Of a DNA stretch of 64,000 nt, positions 8,184-59,978 are shown piece after piece. The position numbers were made by a program, and so were the translations under genes. A model generated the notes under the pieces. That model searched no databases, had not been told where the DNA came from, and saw only the letters and a list, made by a program, of their open reading frames with translations. Numbering within the stretch: position 1 is the first letter of the stretch; each line of letters opens with the position of its first letter. This DNA is from Desulfobacterales bacterium (lineage in GTDB: Bacteria; Desulfobacterota; Desulfobacteria; Desulfobacterales; JAIPEE01): contig JAIPEE010000022.1 in assembly GCA_021737275.1 (NCBI GenBank), positions 1 to 64,000 of the forward strand, given 5' to 3'.

Positions 8184-8231
8184 ATAAGGTGCGGCTCCCT
8201 CACATTCTGGAGAGCAGTGCCTTATTTTTTT
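8184..8231 (+). terminator. rho-independent terminator after the OmpA lipoprotein gene
   Basis: ATAAGG (8184-8189) pairs with CCTTAT (8220-8225) around an imperfect inner stem and is followed by a run of seven T residues. Confidence 0.6.
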
Positions 8232-8288
8232 ACAACCAAAATCAAATTTCACAGTTTTACGATCTTATAACAAAACGCCATTTTTTTC

Positions 8289-8407
8289 GTCTCCACCCCT
8301 TCCTGTCCGGTGAAGCTTTCGCACATATGGAAATTCCAACCACCCATATCTCCGTATCCTCAGTACGCACTGTTCAGCGCTTTTTTATTTCCTCTCACGC
8401 CTTATAC
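8289..8407 (+). repeat. degenerate copy of the dispersed heptamer-period repeat
   Basis: Contains CCTCAGTACGCACTGTTCAG and CCTCTCACGCCTTATAC, diverged versions of the word family found in the other intergenic copies (19.7, 37.0, 39.0, 40.5, 42.0, 43.4 and 49.9 kb). Confidence 0.5.
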
Positions 8408-12432: not shown

Positions 12433-12475
12433 TTGACTACATAACAACGTTATGTTCACATAACCTAATTATGCA
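12433..12475 (+). promoter_or_regulatory. TetR operator cluster and promoter of the dehydrogenase operon
   Basis: A -35-like TTGACT (12433-12438) is followed by alternating 7-bp arms: ACATAAC (12439-12445), GTTATGT (12449-12455) and ACATAAC (12458-12464). These create two overlapping palindromes; the second, GTTATGTTCACATAAC, is a 16-bp inverted repeat. It lies 38 bases before the TetR start, as expected for an autoregulatory operator. A 14/16 match lies at 15461-15476 before the second dehydrogenase. Confidence 0.65.
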
Positions 12476-12502: not shown

Positions 12503-13147
12503 ATGACCACTTTCTTTGCCAAGCAGAAAGAGACGGAGAGACAGCATCGGATCGACCATATTCTTGAAGCTGCAAAAACCGTTTTTATGGAAAAAGGTTA
12601 TAAAAATGCGACACTCCGGAAGATTGCGCTCAAGGCCCAGATCACTACCGGAGCCATATATGTCTATTTTTCCGGCAAAGATGAGCTCTATGCTGAAGTC
12701 TGCAAGCAGATCTTTCACCTGATGAACAGTTATCTGGATAAAGCCTCAAAAGTCGATGGCGACATAAAACAGCGAATCATGTCCATGGCTATGGCTATCC
12801 TTCGGTTTGAGAAAGACCATCACGATGCTGCAGATATGCTGGCTGCCAACTTTTCAATACTGAATCTGCCGGATAAACTTTCTGAGGAACTGTCTGAACT
12901 TGGCAGTCAGACAACATACTATATTACCCGGATTATAATTGACGGAAAAAAAGAAGGCTTTTTCCCACCGGACAAAGATGATGTCCGTTTAGCCCTTTCA
13001 CTATGGTCAAGCCTTGAAGGTTTTCTGTATATGAATGATTATGGCATTTTTGATAAGTACGACATCGACTTTGAAGAACTTGTTAAAGATCATATCAACT
13101 ATTTTATCTGCGGAATTCAGCAGTACAAAGAGGAGGAAAACGCATGA
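12503..13147 (+). CDS. TetR/AcrR-family regulator of the saccharopine-dehydrogenase module
   Basis: A 214-aa protein. The N-terminal HTH (about residues 12-58) is typical: ATLRKIALKAQITTGAIYVY with the recognition helix and F(S)GKDELY turn. The C-terminal all-helical ligand domain is variable, as usual in the family. RBS CTGGAGA. The stop overlaps the start of the next gene by 4 bases (ATGA), so the regulator and the dehydrogenase are translationally coupled. The palindromes at 12439-12464 are the likely operator. The inducer is probably a substrate or product of the adjacent enzymes, which is inference. Confidence 0.93.
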   Translation: MTTFFAKQKETERQHRIDHILEAAKTVFMEKGYKNATLRKIALKAQITTGAIYVYFSGKDELYAEVCKQIFHLMNSYLDKASKVDGDIKQRIMSMAMAILRFEKDHHDAADMLAANFSILNLPDKLSEELSELGSQTTYYITRIIIDGKKEGFFPPDKDDVRLALSLWSSLEGFLYMNDYGIFDKYDIDFEELVKDHINYFICGIQQYKEEENA

Positions 13148-14376
13148 AAAAGATACTCGTCGTCGGCGCCGGTGCACAGGGTGGACCATGTGCATCCATT
13201 CTTTCAAAACAGGAAGAAATTTCAGAAATTCGTCTGGGTGACATCAATCTTGATTTTGCCAAAAAAATCGCAGCAAAAATTGGCGGAGACAAAATTAAAG
13301 CGATAAAACTTGATGCGGGTAACAAAGATGAGATTATTAAAGCAGCAGAAGGCGTGGATGCCGTTATCAACCTGACCCTGATTGATTTCAATGATAATAT
13401 TCTTCAGACAGCTATCGCTGTTGGCGCCCATTACATTGACACGGCCAATGATTATGCCTATCTGAAAGAGATGGCTGCCGGATCAACCACCCTGCCATAT
13501 CAGGAAGCGTTTAAAGGTACCGGCAAAACTGCACTTATGGGCTGCGGTGCATCACCGGGCGTCACTAATGTAATGGCCCGTTATGCCTGCGATCAGATGG
13601 ATGAAGTAGAAAAAATTTATGTCCGGATCGGCAGTGCCGGACTTGGCAAATCTGAAGAAATTGTCAGTGCCTGGAACCCGGGCTGGTCTCCTGAAATTGC
13701 GCTACTTGATTTTGCAGAAAAACCGATGATTTTTGAGAATGGAAAGTATAAAACTGTTCCGATTTTCGGACGACCTGAAAATTATCAATTTTCGGAACCA
13801 TTTGGTAAAAGTCTTCTGGCATCTCACTCTCATGAAGAGCCATACACGATGCCTTACTATATCGGTAAGGGATTGAAAGAGGTTGATTTCAAATATCCGG
13901 TAGATTATATGGCCGGTACATTTGTAAAGATGGGCTTTGCCGATGACCGTGAGATCGAAATTAAAGGTGTAAAAGTGTGTCCCAGGGATGTTCTGATGAA
14001 ACTGGTACACAGACCGGCCAATGAATTTCTGGATGAAACAGAAGAGTCAATCCATGAATCAGCAGGCTATGCATGGATTATGGAAATTGAAGTTAGCGGT
14101 CTGAGAAATGGCAAAAAAGTAAAACACATTATTGAACAAAAATTTGTTATGGATAAAGAGGCCAGGCAGTATTTATTTAAGACGTTTGGTTCAAGCCATA
14201 TTGGTGTATCGCTGCCTGCAGTGGTCGGCACGAAAATGTGTCTGGCTGGTGATACGGAAAGCGGCGTCATTTCATCTGAGTGTCTTAGCCCGGATAAATT
14301 TTTTAAGATAATGGCCGATATGGGTTCTCCGGTTAAGCTTACGGAAAAAATTGAAATCATAACCAGTTTCACATAA
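13144..14376 (+). CDS. saccharopine dehydrogenase-like oxidoreductase, copy 1
   Basis: A 410-aa protein with an N-terminal Rossmann fold (ILVVGAGAQGGPCASIL) and the family continuation AVINLTLIDFNDNILQTAI and GAHYIDTAN. True saccharopine or carboxynorspermidine dehydrogenases of this family couple reductive condensation or cleavage of an amino acid with a keto or aldehyde acid using NAD(P)H; the substrate here is not known. It is translationally coupled to the TetR gene upstream. A close paralogue of full length lies at 15492. Both keep the central block SHSHEEPYT. No lysine-pathway neighbour is present, so a role in amine or diamino-acid metabolism is inference. Confidence 0.9.
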   Translation: MKKILVVGAGAQGGPCASILSKQEEISEIRLGDINLDFAKKIAAKIGGDKIKAIKLDAGNKDEIIKAAEGVDAVINLTLIDFNDNILQTAIAVGAHYIDTANDYAYLKEMAAGSTTLPYQEAFKGTGKTALMGCGASPGVTNVMARYACDQMDEVEKIYVRIGSAGLGKSEEIVSAWNPGWSPEIALLDFAEKPMIFENGKYKTVPIFGRPENYQFSEPFGKSLLASHSHEEPYTMPYYIGKGLKEVDFKYPVDYMAGTFVKMGFADDREIEIKGVKVCPRDVLMKLVHRPANEFLDETEESIHESAGYAWIMEIEVSGLRNGKKVKHIIEQKFVMDKEARQYLFKTFGSSHIGVSLPAVVGTKMCLAGDTESGVISSECLSPDKFFKIMADMGSPVKLTEKIEIITSFT

Positions 14377-14455
14377 TTATATTTTTACTACTTTTCTCCC
14401 TCATCTTCCTTCAGAAGGAGAAAGAAAATTTTTAATACTTTTTAAAAATTATAAT

Positions 14456-15295
14456 ATGGAAGCAGTAATATTTGCATTACTTTCCTGTATTTGCTGGGCC
14501 AGTGCGGGATTCATCGGCGGGTTTAAAAACAAAACCGTTCACATTCTGTACATACTGGCTGCATCTTATATTACAGGATTTGTAATTATATCAATCGTAG
14601 TCACTGTCAGGAGCCGGGGATTTCCAATGGACTCGCATCTGCTCTATGGTGCTTTTGCCGGTATGATTGCGCCCATTGCAGTGGGCTGTCTGCTTCGTGG
14701 TCTATCTGTCGGCAAAATGGGGGTGATCTCCGCCATTGCTGCAACCGGTGTTTTAATTCCGTTAATATATGACCTTGTTCTGGGCAATTATCCAAATATA
14801 TACCAGTTTGCCGGTATGATTATGGCCATTATCGGCGTTATGATCATCTCGCTTGAAAATGCAGGCCACCAAAATGGCAAACGAATTGTGGCCGGTGTCG
14901 GGCTGGCGCTCTGTTCAGCATTTTTGTTCGGCTTTTTTAATTTATTCATTGATGCCGCCAGTAATATTGATCCGTTCTGGACCATTTTCTGCCTTCGTGT
15001 CAGTTCACTGGTATGCATCAGTTTTGCACTTGCAGTAAAACGCCCTAAACTGGAGTTTACCCGGCGGGACCTGCCGGTGATGCTTTCCATGGGCCTTTTT
15101 GAAACGGGCGGTTCCCTGTTTTTTGCACTGGCTTCAACAAAGGGTCTGGTCAGTGTTATTTCGGTGATTATTGCCATTAATCCTGCTGTTGTGGCCCTGC
15201 TTGCATTTTTTATTTTAAAACAACAACTAAGCAGAAAACAGATTACAGGCATTTCGGTTGCTCTGGCAGGCGTTTCTATAATTGTTTATGGTTGA
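14456..15295 (+). CDS. EamA/DMT-superfamily transporter
   Basis: A 279-aa membrane protein with about ten hydrophobic helices and the internal duplication typical of EamA exporters (helix starts MEAVIFALLSCICWASAGF and RIVAGVGLALCSAFLFGFF). The family exports amino acids and other small metabolites. It sits between the two saccharopine-dehydrogenase-like genes, in the same direction, about 80 bases after copy 1, so export or uptake of the pathway substrate is likely. No good RBS directly precedes the ATG, although AAGGAG occurs at 14415; translation may depend on read-through from upstream. Confidence 0.9.
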   Translation: MEAVIFALLSCICWASAGFIGGFKNKTVHILYILAASYITGFVIISIVVTVRSRGFPMDSHLLYGAFAGMIAPIAVGCLLRGLSVGKMGVISAIAATGVLIPLIYDLVLGNYPNIYQFAGMIMAIIGVMIISLENAGHQNGKRIVAGVGLALCSAFLFGFFNLFIDAASNIDPFWTIFCLRVSSLVCISFALAVKRPKLEFTRRDLPVMLSMGLFETGGSLFFALASTKGLVSVISVIIAINPAVVALLAFFILKQQLSRKQITGISVALAGVSIIVYG

Positions 15296-15460
15296 GCTGA
15301 TGATAAACTTGATATACAAACAGCATAAAATTATCATTTCCCCTTCTGATATTGACGATATTCTTCTGGAACTTGCAGTCTGGTAGACCATTTAGATTTT
15401 CATCTGTAATAATTATCTTAAAAAAATTTACCCGGCAGAACATGAGCAACAGTTTCTATT

Positions 15461-15478
15461 GTTGTGTTCACATAAAAC
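15461..15478 (+). promoter_or_regulatory. second copy of the TetR operator, before dehydrogenase copy 2
   Basis: GTTGTGTTCACATAAAAC matches GTTATGTTCACATAAC (12449-12464) at 14 of 16 positions and keeps the palindromic core. It sits 14 bases before the ATG at 15492, overlapping the leader, where a repressor would block transcription. Confidence 0.55.
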
Positions 15479-15491
15479 AAGGAGTTTTATA

Positions 15492-16727
15492 ATGAAAAAA
15501 ATATTAGTTGTGGGCGCCGGTGCCCAGGGTGGCCCCTGTGCCTCAATTCTGGCAAGACAGGAAGAGATTTCTGAAATTCGCCTCGCTGACATCAACCTTG
15601 AATTTACTCAGAAAGTGGCAGCAAAAATCGGAGGCAATAAAGTCAAACCGATAAAACTTGATGCCGGTAACAAAGAAGCGCTGATTGAAGCGGCCAGAGG
15701 CGTTGATGCTGTTATAAATCTGACATTGATTGATTTTAATGACAATGTCATCCAGGCAGCTATTGCTGCCGGGGCCCACTACATTGATACTGCAAATGCC
15801 TATGAATATCTGGATGAAATGGCCAAAGGTGTATCCACCTTAAAATATCACGAAGAGTTTAACAATATCGGTAAAACCGCGCTCATGGGCTGTGGTGGAA
15901 CACCGGGCCTTACCAATGTGCTGGCCAGGTATGTGTGTGATCAGCTTGATGAAGTCGATAAGCTGTACATCCGTATTGGCGGAACCGGACTTGGAGAACC
16001 GGATGATATTGTCAGTGCATGGGATCCGGGCTGGTCTCCTGAAATTGCATTACTTGATTTTGCAAAAAAACCGATGATCTTTGAAGATGGGCAGTATAAA
16101 AAAGTTCCTGTCTTTAGTCGCCCTGAAGATTATCAATTTGACGAACCGGTCGGGCAGAATCTGCTGGCATCTCACTCCCATGAAGAGCCATATACCCTTC
16201 CATATTTTATCGGCAAAGGCATAAAGGAGGTCGATTTTAAATATCCGGTGGATACAATGGCCGGCACATTTGTAAAAATGGGTTTTGCCGATGATGAAGA
16301 GATTGAGGTCAAGGGTGTAAAGATTTGCCCGAGAGATGTATTAATGAAACTGGTTCACAGACCGGCCAATGGTTTTCTTGATGAATCGGAAGAAGAGATC
16401 AACTCATGGGAAGGTTTCTCATGGGTCATGGAAATAGAGGTTACCGGTTCACGCAACAACAAAAAGGTCAGACACGTCATTTCCCAAAAATTCCATATGG
16501 ATAAAGCGGCCAGACTAAACCTTTTTAATACATTTGGCTCAAGCCATATTGATGTTGCGCTGCCGGCTGTCGCCGGCGCAAAAATGTGCCTTGCTGATAA
16601 TACCGATACCGGTGTTATCTCTTCAGAATGTCTTGATCCCGACTCCTTTTATAATATTATGACAGGCATGGGGTTTCCGGTTGAGTTCGAAGAAAGGGTT
16701 GAAAGCATTACCCGTTATGGAAAATAA
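15492..16727 (+). CDS. saccharopine dehydrogenase-like oxidoreductase, copy 2
   Basis: A 411-aa paralogue of the enzyme at 13144. Whole stretches are identical or nearly so, including ILVVGAGAQGGPCASIL, LLASHSHEEPYT and GTFVKMGFADD, with most differences conservative. I place the start at 15492, where AAGGAG stands 8 bases upstream; an earlier in-frame start at 15459 would add 11 residues across the operator. It heads a probable second unit with the aminotransferase at 16791 (63-base gap). The recent duplication with both copies intact suggests related but distinct substrates or a heteromer; this is inference. Confidence 0.9.
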   Translation: MKKILVVGAGAQGGPCASILARQEEISEIRLADINLEFTQKVAAKIGGNKVKPIKLDAGNKEALIEAARGVDAVINLTLIDFNDNVIQAAIAAGAHYIDTANAYEYLDEMAKGVSTLKYHEEFNNIGKTALMGCGGTPGLTNVLARYVCDQLDEVDKLYIRIGGTGLGEPDDIVSAWDPGWSPEIALLDFAKKPMIFEDGQYKKVPVFSRPEDYQFDEPVGQNLLASHSHEEPYTLPYFIGKGIKEVDFKYPVDTMAGTFVKMGFADDEEIEVKGVKICPRDVLMKLVHRPANGFLDESEEEINSWEGFSWVMEIEVTGSRNNKKVRHVISQKFHMDKAARLNLFNTFGSSHIDVALPAVAGAKMCLADNTDTGVISSECLDPDSFYNIMTGMGFPVEFEERVESITRYGK

Positions 16728-16790
16728 TAGCTGAGAAGTAGTGTTGCTCCATTATTTTTTAATTAAAAATAGAAAAGGAGAAAATTTAAA

Positions 16791-18125
16791 ATGGAAAACA
16801 AAAAAGAAGCCATATTAAAAGAGCTGGCAAAACGTACACCCAAATCCGGTAAATACTGGGAAGAATCCAAAGATTTGATTCCAGGCGGCCTCATGAGCGG
16901 TGCACGGTCAATGGCGCCTTATCCCGTTTATGTAGAACGTGCAAAAGGTGCCTACCTATGGGATATTGACGGAAATAAATATATTGATTGTGTCTGTTCA
17001 TATGGTGTTCATCTGCTGGGCCATGGCCCTGAATCTGTTGTAGAAGCAATAGGTAAGCAGTATGACCTGGGCTTAAGCTATGGCACACCGCACACACGGG
17101 AGATAGATTTCAGCAAACGATTTGTGGCGTGTGTACCGTGTGCTGAAATCGGCATGGTTTGTAATACAGGAACCGAAGCCACTTTACTCGCCTGGCGCCT
17201 TATGAGAGCAGCAACAGGAAAAAATAAAATAGCCAAATTTGAAGGCTGTTATCACGGCTGGCATGATTATGCCCAGTGGAGCGTAGGAATTAATCCGGAT
17301 AAAATGGGACCGGCAGATCGGCCCAACATCAATCCGGGAGCCTCAGGGATTCCTGATAAAATAAAAGAAACCATGCTTATGCTCCCCTTTAACGACAGTG
17401 CATTTGATTTAATTGAAGAACATGCTGATGAGCTGGCAGGTGTGGCAATTGAGCCGGTTCTAGGCGGCGGGATGCTGCCCGTTGATAAATCCTTTCTTGA
17501 AAAATTAAGAAAAGTGACTAAAAAACTTGGTATTTTACTCCACTTTGATGAAGTCATTACCGGATTCAGGCTGGCCCTGGGCGGATACCAGGAGATCACC
17601 GGAATTCTTCCGGATCTGGCCACTTATGGCAAAATTGTTGGCGGCGGACTGCCAATTGGCGCCATTGCCTGTTCCAAAGCCCTGGTGAAAGTAGCCCAGG
17701 AAACTGATAACGGTTGGGCTGCTGCAGGAACATTCAGCGGTAATCCCCTGACCCTGTCAACCGGTGCAGCAACATTAAAATATCTCCAGGAGAACACTCA
17801 TATTTATGAAGACATGATGAAGAAAGGTGAGTTTCTCAGAAACGGATTTAATGATTATGTCAAATCAAAAGGTTATCCGTTCTGCATGACCGGCCTCGGT
17901 TCCATGTTCCAGATTCATGCACAGGCTGAACTGCCACTTGTTCCCAGGGATACGCTGTATCAGGATGAAGATGCTCTTGAAAATCTTCAGCTTCAATTCC
18001 GCCTGAATAATATCCTGCTGCCATGGATGCATCTGGCTTTCTTTGGTGCAGCGCATACTGAGGCAGATCTTGGAGAAATGCTGGAAGGATTCAAGGCTTC
18101 AGTGGATGGTACAATGGAGATGTAA
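16791..18125 (+). CDS. PLP-dependent class III aminotransferase, glutamate-1-semialdehyde aminomutase-like
   Basis: A 444-aa fold-type I PLP enzyme. Visible landmarks: GTEATLLAWRLMRAATGK (phosphate and cofactor region), CYHGWHD, the Asp of the PLP pyridine contact in HFDEVITGFR, and the Schiff-base Lys in ATYGKIVGGGLPIGA. The pattern is closest to the HemL/GSA aminomutase branch, but the context (two saccharopine-dehydrogenase-like genes, EamA and MATE exporters, no heme genes) suggests a different amino acid or amine substrate. RBS AAAAGGAG. It lies 63 bases after dehydrogenase copy 2 and is probably in its operon. Confidence 0.93.
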   Translation: MENKKEAILKELAKRTPKSGKYWEESKDLIPGGLMSGARSMAPYPVYVERAKGAYLWDIDGNKYIDCVCSYGVHLLGHGPESVVEAIGKQYDLGLSYGTPHTREIDFSKRFVACVPCAEIGMVCNTGTEATLLAWRLMRAATGKNKIAKFEGCYHGWHDYAQWSVGINPDKMGPADRPNINPGASGIPDKIKETMLMLPFNDSAFDLIEEHADELAGVAIEPVLGGGMLPVDKSFLEKLRKVTKKLGILLHFDEVITGFRLALGGYQEITGILPDLATYGKIVGGGLPIGAIACSKALVKVAQETDNGWAAAGTFSGNPLTLSTGAATLKYLQENTHIYEDMMKKGEFLRNGFNDYVKSKGYPFCMTGLGSMFQIHAQAELPLVPRDTLYQDEDALENLQLQFRLNNILLPWMHLAFFGAAHTEADLGEMLEGFKASVDGTMEM

Positions 18126-18255
18126 TTGTATTTTCAACGCTTCAAAACCTTAATCATTGTTTAGATTCAGGTTACGATTAAGAGTAAAATTATGAAAAAT
18201 CAGATCTCCAAGTTCGGTGAAAGAATATGGTGTATCCTGTGAAAAATTGTAATTC

Positions 18256-19683
18256 ATGAATTGGTTTGTTAACAGATGGCAGGGTCCGGGCGGATATCGT
18301 GAAGTCCTGAGAATTGCATTTCCGCTTGTTTTGAGTACCGGTCTTACCGCCATACAGTATGTGGTGGACCGAATTTTCCTTGCCCGATATTCAGCTGAAG
18401 CTATTGCGGCGGCACTACCGGCCGGTCTTCTGAACTGGGCCGTGATGAGCCTTTTTTATGGCATGGCCCAGTATGTCAATACATTTACTGCCCAATATTA
18501 TGGTGCTGACCGAATGCACCGGATCGGCCCGGCCCTCTGGCAGGGCATCTATATCGGGGTTTTTGGCGGACTTTTCATGCTGCTGCTGATTCCGTTTTCG
18601 CCATTTATATACAATCTGATCGGACATGATCCTTTAATTCGAACCTTTGAAACTGAATATTTCCAGATTCTCTGTATGGGTGGTATGCCGGCCATGGTTT
18701 CAGTTGCCTTTTCAGGTTTTTACACAGGCCGGGGAAATATCTGGCCGGTACTGGGTGTAAGTACGCTGATGACGGCTGCCAATGTTATTCTGGACTACAC
18801 TATGGTTTTCGGCAACTGGGGCTTCCCGGAAATGGGTATACACGGTGCCGGCTATGCCACCGCTATTGCTGCGCTTATCTCATGTGCAACGTACTCATTC
18901 ATGACATTTTCTCCTGGAAACAACCATCGCTGGAAAACATTGTCCGGATGGCGGCCCGACCGGAAACTTTTTTTCAGAATGATCAAGTATGGCTTTCCAT
19001 ACGGCGTTCAGATGTTTATGGATCTTCTTGGTTTTACAGTTTTTGTGCTGCTTGTAGGACGCCTGGGAATTGTTGATCTGGCAGCAACCAACATCGCTTT
19101 TAATATTAATACACTGGCATTTGAGCCCATGCTGGGCGCCGGAATGGCGGCATCCGTTCTGGTAGGACAATATCTTGGAAGCGATCAGCCGGAACTTGCT
19201 CAGCGGTCCGCATATTCAACATTTCATATATGCCTTCTTTATATGTCAATCGTATCACTGAGTTATGTGCTGGTTCCGGATCTTTATATTTCTCTTTATG
19301 CATCAGAGCGAAATGCAGAAAATTTTAACCGGATGCGTGATCTTGTTATCGTATTACTCCGTTTTGTCGCTGTGTACTCCTTGTTTGACGCTATTTGTAT
19401 TATTGGCGGATCCGTTCTTAACGGTGCCGGAGATACCCGGTTTGTTATGAAAACAAATCTTCTATCGTCCATGTTGATATTGGTAATTCCTACATATGTA
19501 GCCATTGTTTTGTTGGGATACGGATTGATGACATCCTGGGTTCTGGTTACCTGTTACATGATTATTATTTCAATCATATTCTCCCTGCGTTTTTTAACCG
19601 GCAAGTGGAAAGATATGCGGGTAATCGAACGGCAACCGCCAATTACAATTATTGACAACGATATCGAACCTTTAAGCACATAG
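18256..19683 (+). CDS. MATE-family efflux transporter
   Basis: A 475-aa integral membrane protein with about twelve TM helices in two homologous halves. Each half begins with the MATE-type signature (REVLRIAFPLVLSTGLTAIQ and KLFFRMIKYGFPYGVQMFMD), and the loop GSVLNGAGDTRFVMK is characteristic. MATE pumps exchange Na+ or H+ for cationic metabolites and drugs. It is 130 bases after the aminotransferase and the last gene of the module, which suggests export of a pathway product or toxic amine. No strong RBS precedes the ATG. Confidence 0.93.
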   Translation: MNWFVNRWQGPGGYREVLRIAFPLVLSTGLTAIQYVVDRIFLARYSAEAIAAALPAGLLNWAVMSLFYGMAQYVNTFTAQYYGADRMHRIGPALWQGIYIGVFGGLFMLLLIPFSPFIYNLIGHDPLIRTFETEYFQILCMGGMPAMVSVAFSGFYTGRGNIWPVLGVSTLMTAANVILDYTMVFGNWGFPEMGIHGAGYATAIAALISCATYSFMTFSPGNNHRWKTLSGWRPDRKLFFRMIKYGFPYGVQMFMDLLGFTVFVLLVGRLGIVDLAATNIAFNINTLAFEPMLGAGMAASVLVGQYLGSDQPELAQRSAYSTFHICLLYMSIVSLSYVLVPDLYISLYASERNAENFNRMRDLVIVLLRFVAVYSLFDAICIIGGSVLNGAGDTRFVMKTNLLSSMLILVIPTYVAIVLLGYGLMTSWVLVTCYMIIISIIFSLRFLTGKWKDMRVIERQPPITIIDNDIEPLST

Positions 19684-19744
19684 CCGCACAGGTATTATTC
19701 CTCTCCCTGCCGCCGCTGCCATGGTGCGGGAAGTACGCCCGTTG

Positions 19745-24418: not shown

Positions 24419-25786
24419 ATGAAAAATTTCTCGCCTTCTTACTCTCCACATCAAGGTTATAAACCACCCGATTTATATGAGTATTTTGTTGATAATTTCT
24501 GGTTTGAAACCACTGACCTTGTAGATAAAAAAATAAATGTTCCTTTGCGTGGCAGCCACAAAGCGGATATCGTTATTATTGGCGGCGGCTATACCGGCCT
24601 TTCTGCTGCCTATAATATTCATAAGCAATTTCCGGATAAAAAGATTATGATCCTTGAAGGTGCCTGCTGCGGTTATGGCGCCAGCGGCAGAAACGGCGGA
24701 TTCTGCACGGCAACTGCAATGCTGGATGAAAGTTGCAAAAAAGATCATGATGCGCGACAGAAATGCATTAAAGTAAGCACCCACGGTATCTCTCAGATCA
24801 AGGAAGTCATGGATAAATACGGCCTGGATTGTGATTTTGAAGAAAACGGTATGCTTGATGTGGTTTTTGATGAAAAACAGGCTAAAACACTGGAAGCTGA
24901 ATGCCGGAATCTGAAAGAGTGGGGACTGACATCCTCTTTTATCCAGGGACAAGTCCTTCAGGATGAAATCAAATCATCCCGGTGTATCGCAGGTCTCAAT
25001 ACCGCCCATGGCGCAACGATTAACCCTGCTAAACTAGCGAGAGGCATGAAAAAGGTTGTTGAGGGCCTGGATGTTGAAATCAGGGAGAAATCCGTGGTGA
25101 TCCGCATTATCCCCGGCAAAACCCATCATATACATACTGAACTCGGAGAAGTAAAAGCGCCGGACATTGTCCTGGCTACCAATGCCTATTCTCATAAAAT
25201 CGATTTTTTCAAAAATCGGGTGTTTCCCATGTGCACATTTGCGGTGGCTACCGAACCGCTTACCTCATCACAAATGGAAAGCATCGGCTGGCAAAATCGT
25301 CAGGGAATTTCCGACCGCAGAATGTTATTCAATTACAGTATCCTCAGTAAAGATAACCGGATTGTCATCGGCGGATCTGATTTTCTCTATTATGCCAATG
25401 ACGGGCTCAGTTCCGGTAACAATATGACGGTTACCAATAAGATTATCAAGGACCTTCATAAAACATTTCCGTCCCTCAGGGATATCAAAATCGAACATGC
25501 CTGGGGCGGTTCAACAGCCGGTTCCATTGGATATACACCATCTATCGGTGTTATGGGTGAACACAACAATATCTATTATGGTGTTGGATTTAGCGAAGGC
25601 GTTCCGGTTACGCAAACTGCCGGTAAAATTATCGCGGATCTTATGGCCGGCAAACAAAATGAATTTACCACGCACTCTTTTGTCAATCGTAATATCCCCT
25701 ATGCAGGCCCACGATTTTTAAGATCCATGTTCGGTACCCTGGCTAAATGGTACCTGGTGAATATTATTCGTGGTGGGGGGCATTGA
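24419..25786 (+). CDS. DAO-family FAD oxidoreductase (PuuB-like amine/amino acid oxidase)
   Basis: A 455-aa flavoenzyme. The dinucleotide-binding motif is ADIVIIGGGYTGLSAAYNI (about residues 51-69), followed by the family hallmark GASGRNGGFC. The DAO fold resembles gamma-glutamylputrescine oxidase and glycine/sarcosine oxidases, which oxidise primary or secondary amines and N-methyl groups. The RBS is AAGGAG, 8 bases upstream. It is alone here but has a paralogue at 57080 inside the MttB cluster, so a related methylated-amine or amino acid role is likely. Confidence 0.9.
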   Translation: MKNFSPSYSPHQGYKPPDLYEYFVDNFWFETTDLVDKKINVPLRGSHKADIVIIGGGYTGLSAAYNIHKQFPDKKIMILEGACCGYGASGRNGGFCTATAMLDESCKKDHDARQKCIKVSTHGISQIKEVMDKYGLDCDFEENGMLDVVFDEKQAKTLEAECRNLKEWGLTSSFIQGQVLQDEIKSSRCIAGLNTAHGATINPAKLARGMKKVVEGLDVEIREKSVVIRIIPGKTHHIHTELGEVKAPDIVLATNAYSHKIDFFKNRVFPMCTFAVATEPLTSSQMESIGWQNRQGISDRRMLFNYSILSKDNRIVIGGSDFLYYANDGLSSGNNMTVTNKIIKDLHKTFPSLRDIKIEHAWGGSTAGSIGYTPSIGVMGEHNNIYYGVGFSEGVPVTQTAGKIIADLMAGKQNEFTTHSFVNRNIPYAGPRFLRSMFGTLAKWYLVNIIRGGGH

Positions 25787-54680: not shown

Positions 54681-56204
54681 TTGACCATTCAACAGAACCC
54701 AACCAATAAAGCCATCTGGCCCGGAATAGCCGGCGGAGCCTACAAGCCACTCAGCAATCATGATATCAAGCGCATTCACAGTACCGCACTTGATGTACTT
54801 GAAAATATCGGCATTGCACATCCAACGCCGGAACTCCTTGAATATGCCTTGCCTAAAGGCTGTATCGTGGGCGACGACGGCCGGCTGAAGTTTCCCCGCG
54901 CACTGGTTGAAGATATTATTGCCTCGACTAAAAAACAGATCCCCTATTATGGCGTTGACCCAAAATATGATTTTGAAGTAAGTGGCGAGAGTGTTTATAC
55001 GGGTACGGCCGGCGAGGCTGTCAATATTTTGGATTATAAAACCCAGACATATCGACCCTCTAAACTGACGGATCTGTATGATGCGGCCCGCATGGTAAAT
55101 CAGTTGGATAACATCCACATCCTTATGCAACCCTTTATTGCTACAGAGCATAGCGAAGACCTGTATAATCACGATATTAACATTGCCTATGCCCAGCTGG
55201 CAGGCACTGCAAAGCCATTTACCCTTTCAATTTCACAGCCAAAACATATTGACCCCATTATCTCTCTGTTTGATACATTTCTGGGAAAAGAAGGCGCTTT
55301 TCTGGAGCGCCCATTCTGCTATATTCTTGGCTGCCCGATTCGATCTCCACTGGCGTTCAGTAAAAACAATCTGGCGGTATTAATTAAAACGGCCCAACTC
55401 GGCTTACCAACCGATTCTTGTGTGGCGTCACAGGCCGGTGCAACCGCACCTGCTGCACTGGCGGGTGCAATGGTACAAACATTTGCTGAAACACTGGCCG
55501 GATTATGTGTGGTAAATCTTGTTCGACCGGGTATGCCAATGTGCTTTGGCATGTGGCCTTTTATTACAGATCTTCGGACCGGAAACTTTACCGGCGGAAG
55601 CGGCGAAGAGGCATTGATTATTTCTGCGGCGGCACAGTTATGTAATTATTATGGTTTGATTACAAGTGGCCCGGCCGGTATGACCGATTCCAAAACCATG
55701 GATGCCCAGGCCGGATACGAAAAGGGTATCACAACGTCTACCGTGGCATTAGCCGGCAGTAATATTATCAGCTTTTATCCAGGAATGGTCGGCAGCCTGA
55801 TGGCCCAGTCGTTTGAAGGCATGGTTATTGATAATGATATGCTGGGCAATGTACTTCGTGTTGTTCGGGGCATTGAAGTGACCGATGAAACATTATCATA
55901 TGATGTCATCAAGGAAACCGTTTATGGCCAAGGTCACTATCTTGATCATCCCCAGACATATAAGCTGATGAGAAGTGAATTTGTCTATCCTGAAATGGCC
56001 GACAGACGTTTACCTGAAGAGTGGCAAAAAGATGGCAGTAAAACAATTTATGACCGGGCCCATGAAAAAGTAAAAGAGATGCTTTCGAACTATTATCCTG
56101 ACCATATTGATCCTGCTGCTGATATTCGAATCCGAGATAACTTTCCCATTAAGCTAAAACCTGCAGATATGAAACCTGGTAATGGTCGGTGGGATAAAGA
56201 ATAA
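54681..56204 (+). CDS. MttB-family trimethylamine/betaine methyltransferase homologue without pyrrolysine, copy 1
   Basis: 507 aa, starting with TTG after AGGAGG (8-base spacing). MttB proteins transfer a methyl group from a methylated amine to a corrinoid protein. The complete frame contains no in-frame amber codon, so it is the non-Pyl branch that includes glycine-betaine (MtgB), proline-betaine and carnitine methyltransferases. Visible landmarks: HSTALDVLENIGIAHPTPE, the TIM-barrel segment VASQAGATAPAALAGAM and ALAGSNIISFYPGM. The other MttB gene at 58536 is a distant relative. No corrinoid protein gene is adjacent. Confidence 0.9.
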   Translation: MTIQQNPTNKAIWPGIAGGAYKPLSNHDIKRIHSTALDVLENIGIAHPTPELLEYALPKGCIVGDDGRLKFPRALVEDIIASTKKQIPYYGVDPKYDFEVSGESVYTGTAGEAVNILDYKTQTYRPSKLTDLYDAARMVNQLDNIHILMQPFIATEHSEDLYNHDINIAYAQLAGTAKPFTLSISQPKHIDPIISLFDTFLGKEGAFLERPFCYILGCPIRSPLAFSKNNLAVLIKTAQLGLPTDSCVASQAGATAPAALAGAMVQTFAETLAGLCVVNLVRPGMPMCFGMWPFITDLRTGNFTGGSGEEALIISAAAQLCNYYGLITSGPAGMTDSKTMDAQAGYEKGITTSTVALAGSNIISFYPGMVGSLMAQSFEGMVIDNDMLGNVLRVVRGIEVTDETLSYDVIKETVYGQGHYLDHPQTYKLMRSEFVYPEMADRRLPEEWQKDGSKTIYDRAHEKVKEMLSNYYPDHIDPAADIRIRDNFPIKLKPADMKPGNGRWDKE

Positions 56205-58535: not shown

Positions 58536-59978
58536 ATGGGAAAAAAAGCAAGTATCCCCGCATCCGGATTTTTACCTGAAATTCTGTCCAGGACCGATAT
58601 TGAAAAAGTCCTTAATAGTGTTTACGAACTGATGTGCGAAGTCGGAATCCGGTTTGACCCTGATCCGAGGGTTCTTGATCTATTTTCCGCTTCCGGATGC
58701 GATATTTCATCTGAAAGTGTTATCAAAATTCATAGAGATCTTGTAGAAAACAGCCTTGATTCGGTTGCAAAAAAAACACAGCTCTATGACCGAAACGGAA
58801 GCGCTGTTGATATTCCCGGTATCTCTTTTGCCGCAGGCATGGGTTGTATAAATATAGTTGATATTGAAACAGGTGAACGAAGACCGAGTACACGGGAAGA
58901 TCTGGCTATGGTTGCCCGCGTGGTGGATGCCCTTCCGAATATTGACGGTATTTGCCAGCCCTGTAAAATTATAGAACGATCCGATGTTTATGGTGAAATT
59001 GATGAATTTAACGTGATCGCCTCCAATACAACCAAACCGTTTGCGTATATTTCCGAATATGTTGAATCCCTTGAAGCGGCCATTGAGCTTGCTGCAGTAA
59101 TCCGGGGCGGGCATGATCAGTTAAGGGAAAAACCTTATTTTTCTTATGGTATAACACAAATGCCGCTTTATTATGCCCAGAAAGAGATCGACCAGATTTT
59201 TATTGGAATTGAAAATGGAATTCCACTTGGATCCGGCAGTATTATAATCGGAGGTGCAACCGGCCCCATGACCATTGCAGGAAGCCTGGTTCATTGTATT
59301 GCCACAGATTTTGCCCTGATTGTACTTGGACAGCTTATTGAAAAAGGTTGTTATTGTGTAAGTAATTCCGAAGTTAATTTCATGGACCCCCGGAACGGTA
59401 ATTTTGGAGGAATACCTGAAATGCATCTGGGTGAACTGGCCAGAATTCAGATTTTCCATAAACTGGGCCTGTCTGCAGGAAGCGGCGCAGGCGGCAGTAC
59501 CTCCCCGGTATTTAACCAGGATTGTTCGGCCGATGTGGCTTCATCAATGATGCATGCTTTTTACAGTGGTGCCGATTCCACTTATTATCTGGGCGGCATT
59601 GAATCGGGAATGACTTACTCCCTGCATTGTCTTCTTTACGGCAATGAATTGGCCGGCATGGTTCGCCGTATGGAAAAAGGTATAGAAATCAATGAAGATA
59701 CCCTGGCTATGGCGGTTACAAAAAAAGTGGGATTGAAGTGTAATTATCTGGCTGAACGTCACACCGTCAACCACTGCAGAACCGAATTGTGGAACCCCGG
59801 ATATTTTCAGAACCTGAATGTGGAACAGTGGGTACGGGAAGGTAAAAAGGATCTGTTTGACCGGATTGATGAAGATTTGAAAAGAATTTTGGCAGAACAT
59901 CAGCCGGAAGCAATTCCGGATAATGTGCGACAGGGTATGGATGAGGTATTGAAAAAATATGGGGTCATTGAAGAATAA
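58536..59978 (+). CDS. MttB-family methyltransferase homologue without pyrrolysine, copy 2
   Basis: 480 aa, RBS ACAGGAG. The start region DIEKVLNSVYELMCEVGIRF and the barrel segments (SIIIGGATGPMTIAGSLVHC; GLSAGSGAGGSTSPVFNQDC) fit the MttB superfamily, distinct from copy 1 in length and sequence. No amber codon in the frame. It is the second gene of the operon, between the DAO oxidoreductase and the FixC genes. The methyl donor is unknown; betaine-type compounds are the best guess from family members. Confidence 0.9.
   Translation: MGKKASIPASGFLPEILSRTDIEKVLNSVYELMCEVGIRFDPDPRVLDLFSASGCDISSESVIKIHRDLVENSLDSVAKKTQLYDRNGSAVDIPGISFAAGMGCINIVDIETGERRPSTREDLAMVARVVDALPNIDGICQPCKIIERSDVYGEIDEFNVIASNTTKPFAYISEYVESLEAAIELAAVIRGGHDQLREKPYFSYGITQMPLYYAQKEIDQIFIGIENGIPLGSGSIIIGGATGPMTIAGSLVHCIATDFALIVLGQLIEKGCYCVSNSEVNFMDPRNGNFGGIPEMHLGELARIQIFHKLGLSAGSGAGGSTSPVFNQDCSADVASSMMHAFYSGADSTYYLGGIESGMTYSLHCLLYGNELAGMVRRMEKGIEINEDTLAMAVTKKVGLKCNYLAERHTVNHCRTELWNPGYFQNLNVEQWVREGKKDLFDRIDEDLKRILAEHQPEAIPDNVRQGMDEVLKKYGVIEE

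Follow-up and report, generated by a model that had tools for sequence, protein, structure and literature searches.

The closest described relatives of the enzymes considered here are dehydrogenases of the carboxyspermidine dehydrogenase (CASDH) type, which act in the reductive direction and use His228, Glu229 and Glu230 (BfCASDH numbering) as catalytic residues (PMC10413350). The same study argued that two structures deposited as saccharopine dehydrogenases, 4INA and 4RL6, are CASDH, and reported that the His-Glu-Glu residues of this type are absent from L-lysine 6-dehydrogenase (PMC10413350). Bacterial flavin opine dehydrogenases contain FAD and [2Fe-2S] subunits of the SoxB/SoxA-like kind (PMC4575208). 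Here we describe a six-gene cluster on the + strand, at positions 12503-19683 of a 64,000-nucleotide stretch of DNA (the window) from a Desulfobacterales bacterium (contig JAIPEE010000022.1, assembly GCA_021737275.1). It encodes two paralogous dehydrogenases, SDH1 and SDH2, together with a TetR-family regulator, an EamA transporter, a class III aminotransferase and a MATE transporter. Our results indicate that SDH1 and SDH2 belong to an uncharacterised clade, sister to CASDH, that has reached about 19-20 copies in this genome. We favour, with slightly less than even confidence, a role for the cluster in splitting an N-substituted amino acid with NAD(P) as cofactor, mainly as an oxidation, with the aminotransferase acting on the amino compound released.

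The draft genome measures 4.26 Mb in 104 contigs (96% complete, 4% contamination), and its contig C61 is the window. The genes and catalytic motifs of the cluster are the following:

12503..13147, + strand: TetR-family regulator (PF00440, TetR_N, 55.7 bits)
13144..14376, + strand: SDH1, dehydrogenase of the HxHEE clade, sister to CASDH (PF03435 and PF16653; tree and motif)
13825..13842, + strand: codons of the SDH1 catalytic motif H-S-H-E-E-P, placed through its gap-free correspondence with SDH2
14456..15295, + strand: EamA/DMT transporter (PF00892, 90.4 bits)
15492..16727, + strand: SDH2, paralogue of SDH1, start ATG 15492 (PF03435 and PF16653; model with pLDDT 93.6)
16173..16190, + strand: codons of the SDH2 motif H228-S-H230-E231-E232-P, from the alignment, with H230 and E232 invariant
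16791..18125, + strand: class III aminotransferase, like glutamate-1-semialdehyde (GSA) aminotransferase, not HemL (PF00202, 176 bits)
18256..19683, + strand: MATE efflux transporter (PF01554; TIGR00797 above cut-off)

A first-pass annotation of this DNA had named six genes of these families, including two paralogous saccharopine-dehydrogenase-like enzymes. All six were found at or near the places it gave, on the same strand and with Pfam domains above the curated cut-offs; SDH1 and SDH2 both carry Sacchrp_dh_NADP and Sacchrp_dh_C. The two dehydrogenases are 73% identical, with a dN/dS of about 0.12 and a dS of about 1.4, which argues for an old duplication maintained by selection, in which both copies look functional. 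The GC content of the cluster genes is near that of the window, and there is therefore no sign of a recent import of the cluster. The reading frames of TetR and SDH1 share 4 bp. Between SDH2 and the aminotransferase gene lie 63 bp, which include a clear ribosome-binding site. The list of open reading frames gives a TTG start at 15459 for SDH2; ATG 15492 was adopted instead, because it is preceded by AAGGAG and matches the start of SDH1.

In a maximum-likelihood tree of 56 sequences, the window SDHs fall in a clade of 21 members (support 99/97) that is sister to CASDH, and the LYS9-type enzymes lie far from them (separation 100/100). A quick tree of 67 sequences recovered the clade with 40 members (SH-aLRT 95) in three subclades, the companions of the window pair being a sequence from genome G589 and a copy on contig C18 of this genome. 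In the approximately unbiased (AU) test, a tree constrained to hold the window pair within CASDH is worse by 119 log-likelihood units and is rejected (p-AU 1.2e-42). The trees were built without an experimentally characterised carboxynorspermidine dehydrogenase, and that relationship was tested by the NCBIfam model alone: the carboxynorspermidine synthase model NF043000 gives 62 and 66 bits for the window SDHs, against an equivalog cut-off of 800 bits. The first-pass annotation had looked to phylogeny to tell the pair from known lysine and carboxynorspermidine enzymes, and the trees and the AU test place it in a separate clade, outside the lysine and the CASDH/carboxynorspermidine clades. A role in the lysine pathway is rejected on the grounds of the tree, of the motif and of the LOR+SDH pair that contig C30 (L012) carries separately, outside the cluster. 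This is the only such pair seen, and the cluster itself holds no lysine-2-oxoglutarate reductase partner. The carboxynorspermidine pathway is rejected by the AU test, by the NF043000 cut-off and by the lack of a carboxy(nor)spermidine decarboxylase among the cluster genes, NspC-like genes being found only on contigs C8 and C86. The earlier remark that no lysine, spermidine or heme genes accompany the set is right for the cluster, but the genome has LOR+SDH, NspC-like and HemL genes elsewhere. The two NspC-like decarboxylases (G000:C8:96633 and G000:C86:28299) score 403 and 284 bits, with a cut-off of 409, and two long-branched SDH-family genes are found close to the one on C8.

The AlphaFold model of SDH2 (pLDDT 93.6, pTM 0.92) matches CASDH best (Z 38-42), followed by L-lysine dehydrogenase (36), saccharopine reductases (~30) and homospermidine synthases (~26). 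By sequence, the nearest solved structures are also of CASDH type, at 23-26% identity in the structural alignment. The likeness to CASDH (PDB 8DEB, 8H4Z/8H52, 4INA, 4RL6) and to carboxyaminopropylagmatine dehydrogenase covers nearly the full length of the fold, with its Rossmann and catalytic domains, and includes a DTAN-type motif and the catalytic residues. H228, E229 and E230 of BfCASDH align with the H-E-E of both SDH1 and SDH2, and H230 and E232 (SDH2 numbering) are invariant in the alignment. However, the surroundings of the motif differ, since the window SDHs have H-x-H-E-E-P, with an extra His two residues before the catalytic one, where CASDH has L-x-H-E-E-L. Moreover, they have L-D in place of R187-E188, a position that is R-E in every CASDH aligned. 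Arg187 is absent from every aligned member of the clade, in which the motif reads HxH(E/D/Q)E(P/Q/V). A further difference is that no CASDC gene is present in the window cluster. LYS9/AASS saccharopine dehydrogenases/reductases share the Pfam domains and the overall fold (Z ~30), but they form another clade (100/100) and have no HxHEE. L-lysine 6-dehydrogenase (3ABI) and homospermidine synthase belong to the same fold superfamily (Z 36 and 26), with 19% and 15% identity. That SDH1 and SDH2 catalyse secondary-amine dehydrogenase chemistry, in one direction or the other, follows from this superfamily.

The expansion of the clade is a feature of this genome. PF03435 gives 25 matches over the cut-off, about 19-20 of which are clade members, and the remaining ones are one lysine-type enzyme and long-branched outliers. 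A profile of the clade plus CASDH (E<=1e-40) finds 22 matches here versus 3-6 in eight other carriers, and a first look with PF16653 gave 23 candidates here versus at most 8 in each of 394 other genomes of a phylum sample. Within the order, 27 of 389 genomes carry the clade (E<=1e-30). The bacterium looks like an amine specialist, apparently one that uses methylated amines, because it has 33 full-length MttB genes (36 MttB-family matches in all) and 19 HemL-like class III aminotransferases. About 10 of the full-length MttB genes contain one in-frame TAG, as in pyrrolysine-containing MttB. Of the 27 genomes with 20 or more MttB candidates, 13 carry the clade, compared with 14 of the 362 others (Fisher p 4e-10, on first-look candidates collated by hand and uncorrected for shared ancestry). 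The MttB genes G000:C84:5-1342 and G000:C86:5-1342 have identical coordinates at contig ends and may be an assembly duplicate. In the paralogue on C18 (L023, ~8200-8330), the N-terminal frame opens with ATA or ATT instead of ATG, which may reflect an unusual start or decay.

Several gene families recur around the clade. Within 4 kb of 40 clade genes, from this and other genomes, we found class III aminotransferases at 12 (3.3% in the background), Lrp regulators at 12, SBP_bac_5-type binding proteins at 10 (4.1%), MttB at 9 (12.3%), MATE at 8, TetR at 7 (3.3%) and EamA at 6 (4.9%). SoxB-like and phytoene-dehydrogenase-like flavoproteins were found at 5 each, and the background is 0 for both of them, as it is for Lrp and MATE. 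The background consists of 122 genes in 20 hand-picked regions of this genome only, some of them on MttB-rich contigs, and each neighbour-family model was built from a single seed. In one subclade, 6 of the 8 members, from six genomes, have MttB nearby; this is not the subclade of the window pair. As a general rule, MttB adjacency was discarded, given that in this genome a single clade member out of 19 has a full-length MttB gene at a distance of up to 4 kb, versus a background of 12%. At one locus (L025, contig C88, 5761-9916), the clade dehydrogenase gene has an MttB gene on either side, and at another (L010, G000:C43:196875-197036) a weak MttB remnant (E 1e-4) stands beside a clade gene of the MttB-linked subclade.

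The closest homologue outside this genome, in G589, is 64-67% identical to the window SDHs. Its neighbours, named partly by inspection, are an amidohydrolase, a flavin oxidoreductase, a Pot-type ABC importer and an aldehyde:ferredoxin oxidoreductase-like gene. Other close relatives of the window pair adjoin SoxB/SoxA-like flavoproteins (on contigs C57 and C92, and in G528, there with EamA as well), and also LIV- or Pot-type ABC genes. The SoxAB-like flavin opine dehydrogenases (OdhABC) probably belong to a common functional class with the clade, the oxidation of N-substituted amino acids. However, they are FAD/FeS enzymes unrelated to it in sequence, and none is encoded in the window cluster. 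The full order SDH-EamA-SDH-aminotransferase was not found elsewhere, the context in G589 being different. Overall, catabolic genes predominate around the clade: MttB, flavin amine/opine oxidases, ABC importers, class III aminotransferases and Lrp. The first-pass annotation had seen in these genes a coherent set serving one dedicated pathway. The recurrence of class III aminotransferases and EamA beside other clade members agrees with a coherent set. A single dedicated pathway for a specialised exported product is not borne out, given that the SDHs are two of about 19-20 clade copies with neighbours mostly for uptake and oxidation, G589 included.

The aminotransferase scores 327 bits with the NCBIfam hemL model (TIGR00713), whose cut-off is 527 bits, and it stays under every equivalog cut-off shown. 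The true HemL, with 653 bits, is on another contig of the genome, and HemL identity is thus rejected. The enzyme is on the same class III branch as HemL, so the earlier label of a GSA-like aminotransferase was apt. Residues like those that we take to be S29 and R32 of HemL appear conserved in a HMMER alignment. An attempt to read the substrate from residues was dropped, since the HTE motif of this enzyme is HTQ or HSQ in its orthologues, and since the sequence that stood for HemL in that comparison (L171) proved to be a wrongly extracted reading frame. The nearest named relatives come from metagenome-assembled genomes of Desulfobacterota (Deltaproteobacteria). Among orthologues with 70-75% identity in other Desulfobacterota (L040-L046), an agmatinase-family gene is close by in 4 of 7 loci, and L040 has an arginine:glycine amidinotransferase-like gene. 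This gives a weak hint that a guanidino compound may yield the substrate, an omega-amino acid; it is weak because these orthologue loci do not contain the dehydrogenases of the clade.

With regard to the control of the cluster, four features were recognised:

12433..12438, + strand: putative -35-like hexamer TTGACT upstream of tetR, read in the sequence (consensus resemblance only)
12450..12463, + strand: operator-like palindrome TTATGTTCACATAA upstream of tetR
15462..15475, + strand: second operator-like site TTGTGTTCACATAA upstream of SDH2, with 1 mismatch to the tetR site
19726..19742, + strand: putative terminator-like hairpin 3' of the MATE gene (consensus match; total for the region at chance level)

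The palindrome TTATGTTCACATAA overlaps a second one, CATAAC-N3-GTTATG, and has the TTGACT hexamer beside it; TTGTGTTCACATAA ends 16 bases 5' of the SDH2 start. With at most one mismatch, this 14-bp word has two sites in the window and none in 691 kb of other loci of the same genome. Its presence upstream of both tetR and SDH2 speaks for a single regulator acting on the two halves of the cluster, and TetR would bind the two sites. The first-pass annotation had pointed to a dedicated TetR, and had noted that separate regulation of the two dehydrogenases would speak against its proposal; the shared word points to common control. Hits in promoter and terminator scans were no commoner than in shuffled sequence.

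In the cleavage that we favour, the two dehydrogenases of a TetR-controlled operon would take a hydride from an N-substituted amino acid, a secondary amine that would either resemble an opine or stem from a methylated amine. The conserved His-Glu relay would assist hydrolysis of the imine, with release of an amino acid or amine and an aldehyde or keto acid. The amino compound set free could then be converted by the aminotransferase, and any excess of product or substrate may be cleared by EamA and MATE. An amine-specialist, Desulfobacterota-like bacterium would thus possess many parallel modules, of which this operon is one. The oxidative direction is preferred because of the neighbourhood of the clade. 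Several points weigh against this proposal. The strongest is that the window cluster has two exporter-type proteins and no importer, oxidase or methyltransferase, and fits biosynthesis equally. In addition, CASDH, the nearest characterised relative, acts reductively, and the window subclade is without MttB adjacency, the two MttB genes of the window being about 35 kb away. Finally, in the neighbour counts several counted genes share one locus and the background comes from this genome alone.

The alternative that survives best, although we regard it as unlikely, is biosynthesis and export, the idea of the first-pass annotation, in which the dehydrogenases would join an amine reductively to a semialdehyde or keto acid, and EamA and MATE would export an opine-like compound. 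The two exporter-type genes, the missing importer and the reductive action of the CASDH relatives (PMC10413350) agree with it, as does the occurrence of EamA or MatE exporters as a mark of opine-zincophore clusters (PMC7438024). Nevertheless, most other clade loci have importers and oxidases, the cluster is without an additional tailoring or synthetase gene, and it is difficult to picture as many exported products as the genome has copies of the clade, about 19-20.

Less probable still is a polyamine-type synthase, a CASDH variant that would join aspartate semialdehyde or a similar aldehyde to another amine. It is suggested by the CASDH fold with its His-Glu-Glu residues, and by a genome in which no canonical CASDH-clade sequence occurs among the retrieved SDH-family genes, yet two NspC-like decarboxylases do. 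The loss of Arg187, the rejected CASDH placement, the 66 versus 800 bits and the absence of a decarboxylase from the cluster speak against it. We give slightly less credit to a response to aldehyde or amine stress, in which the pair would detoxify reactive aldehydes or amines by condensation, MATE and EamA would expel the adduct and TetR would sense the toxicant. A TetR gene with two efflux proteins in an operator-like arrangement would suit such a role, and a TetR gene is within 4 kb of 7 of the 19 clade members of this genome; but the cluster has no classical aldehyde-detoxification gene, and elsewhere the clade adjoins genes for substrate import and catabolism. Biosynthesis of an opine metallophore of the staphylopine/pseudopaline type is very improbable. 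Clusters for it typically have an EamA (or MatE) exporter together with SBP_bac_5-type importers (PMC7438024); both occur around clade members, and the exporter feature (EamA, MFS or MatE) is present in the cluster as EamA and MatE. However, the Pfam scan of the six gene products found no nicotianamine synthase (CntL) or CntM-type dehydrogenase, for which reason this identity is rejected, and the cluster has neither outer-membrane receptor nor importer.

As far as the literature was searched, the fold, the chemistry and the superfamily are already known, while no description exists of the clade, of its expansion or of its links; nothing was found that ties saccharopine-dehydrogenase-like genes to Desulfobacterota sediments or to MttB/pyrrolysine. 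It is possible, though we lean against it, that the HxH(E/D/Q)E clade is a family of secondary-amine dehydrogenases, dependent on NAD(P) and not described before. On this view, its members would work with MttB-type demethylases and class III aminotransferases to give Desulfobacterota an anaerobic route for amino acids of the N-alkylated or opine type, and a lineage-specific explosion would have led to some 20 substrate-specific copies here. The anaerobic breakdown of marine amines (betaines, opines and N-methylated amino acids) past MttB demethylation is poorly known. A clade of about 20 copies that recurs by MttB, flavin amine oxidases, aminotransferases and amino-acid importers offers named candidates for the missing steps. 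Moreover, the annotation 'saccharopine dehydrogenase' covers at least three separate groups, so that inferring lysine or polyamine metabolism from databases is unsafe in such bacteria.

Elsewhere in the window, positions 54693-56138 and 58578-59948 hold two MttB-family genes without an in-frame TAG, with flavin oxidoreductase-like genes around them. Positions 24419-25786 encode a DAO-family FAD-dependent oxidoreductase, of a kind that also adjoins other members of the dehydrogenase clade.

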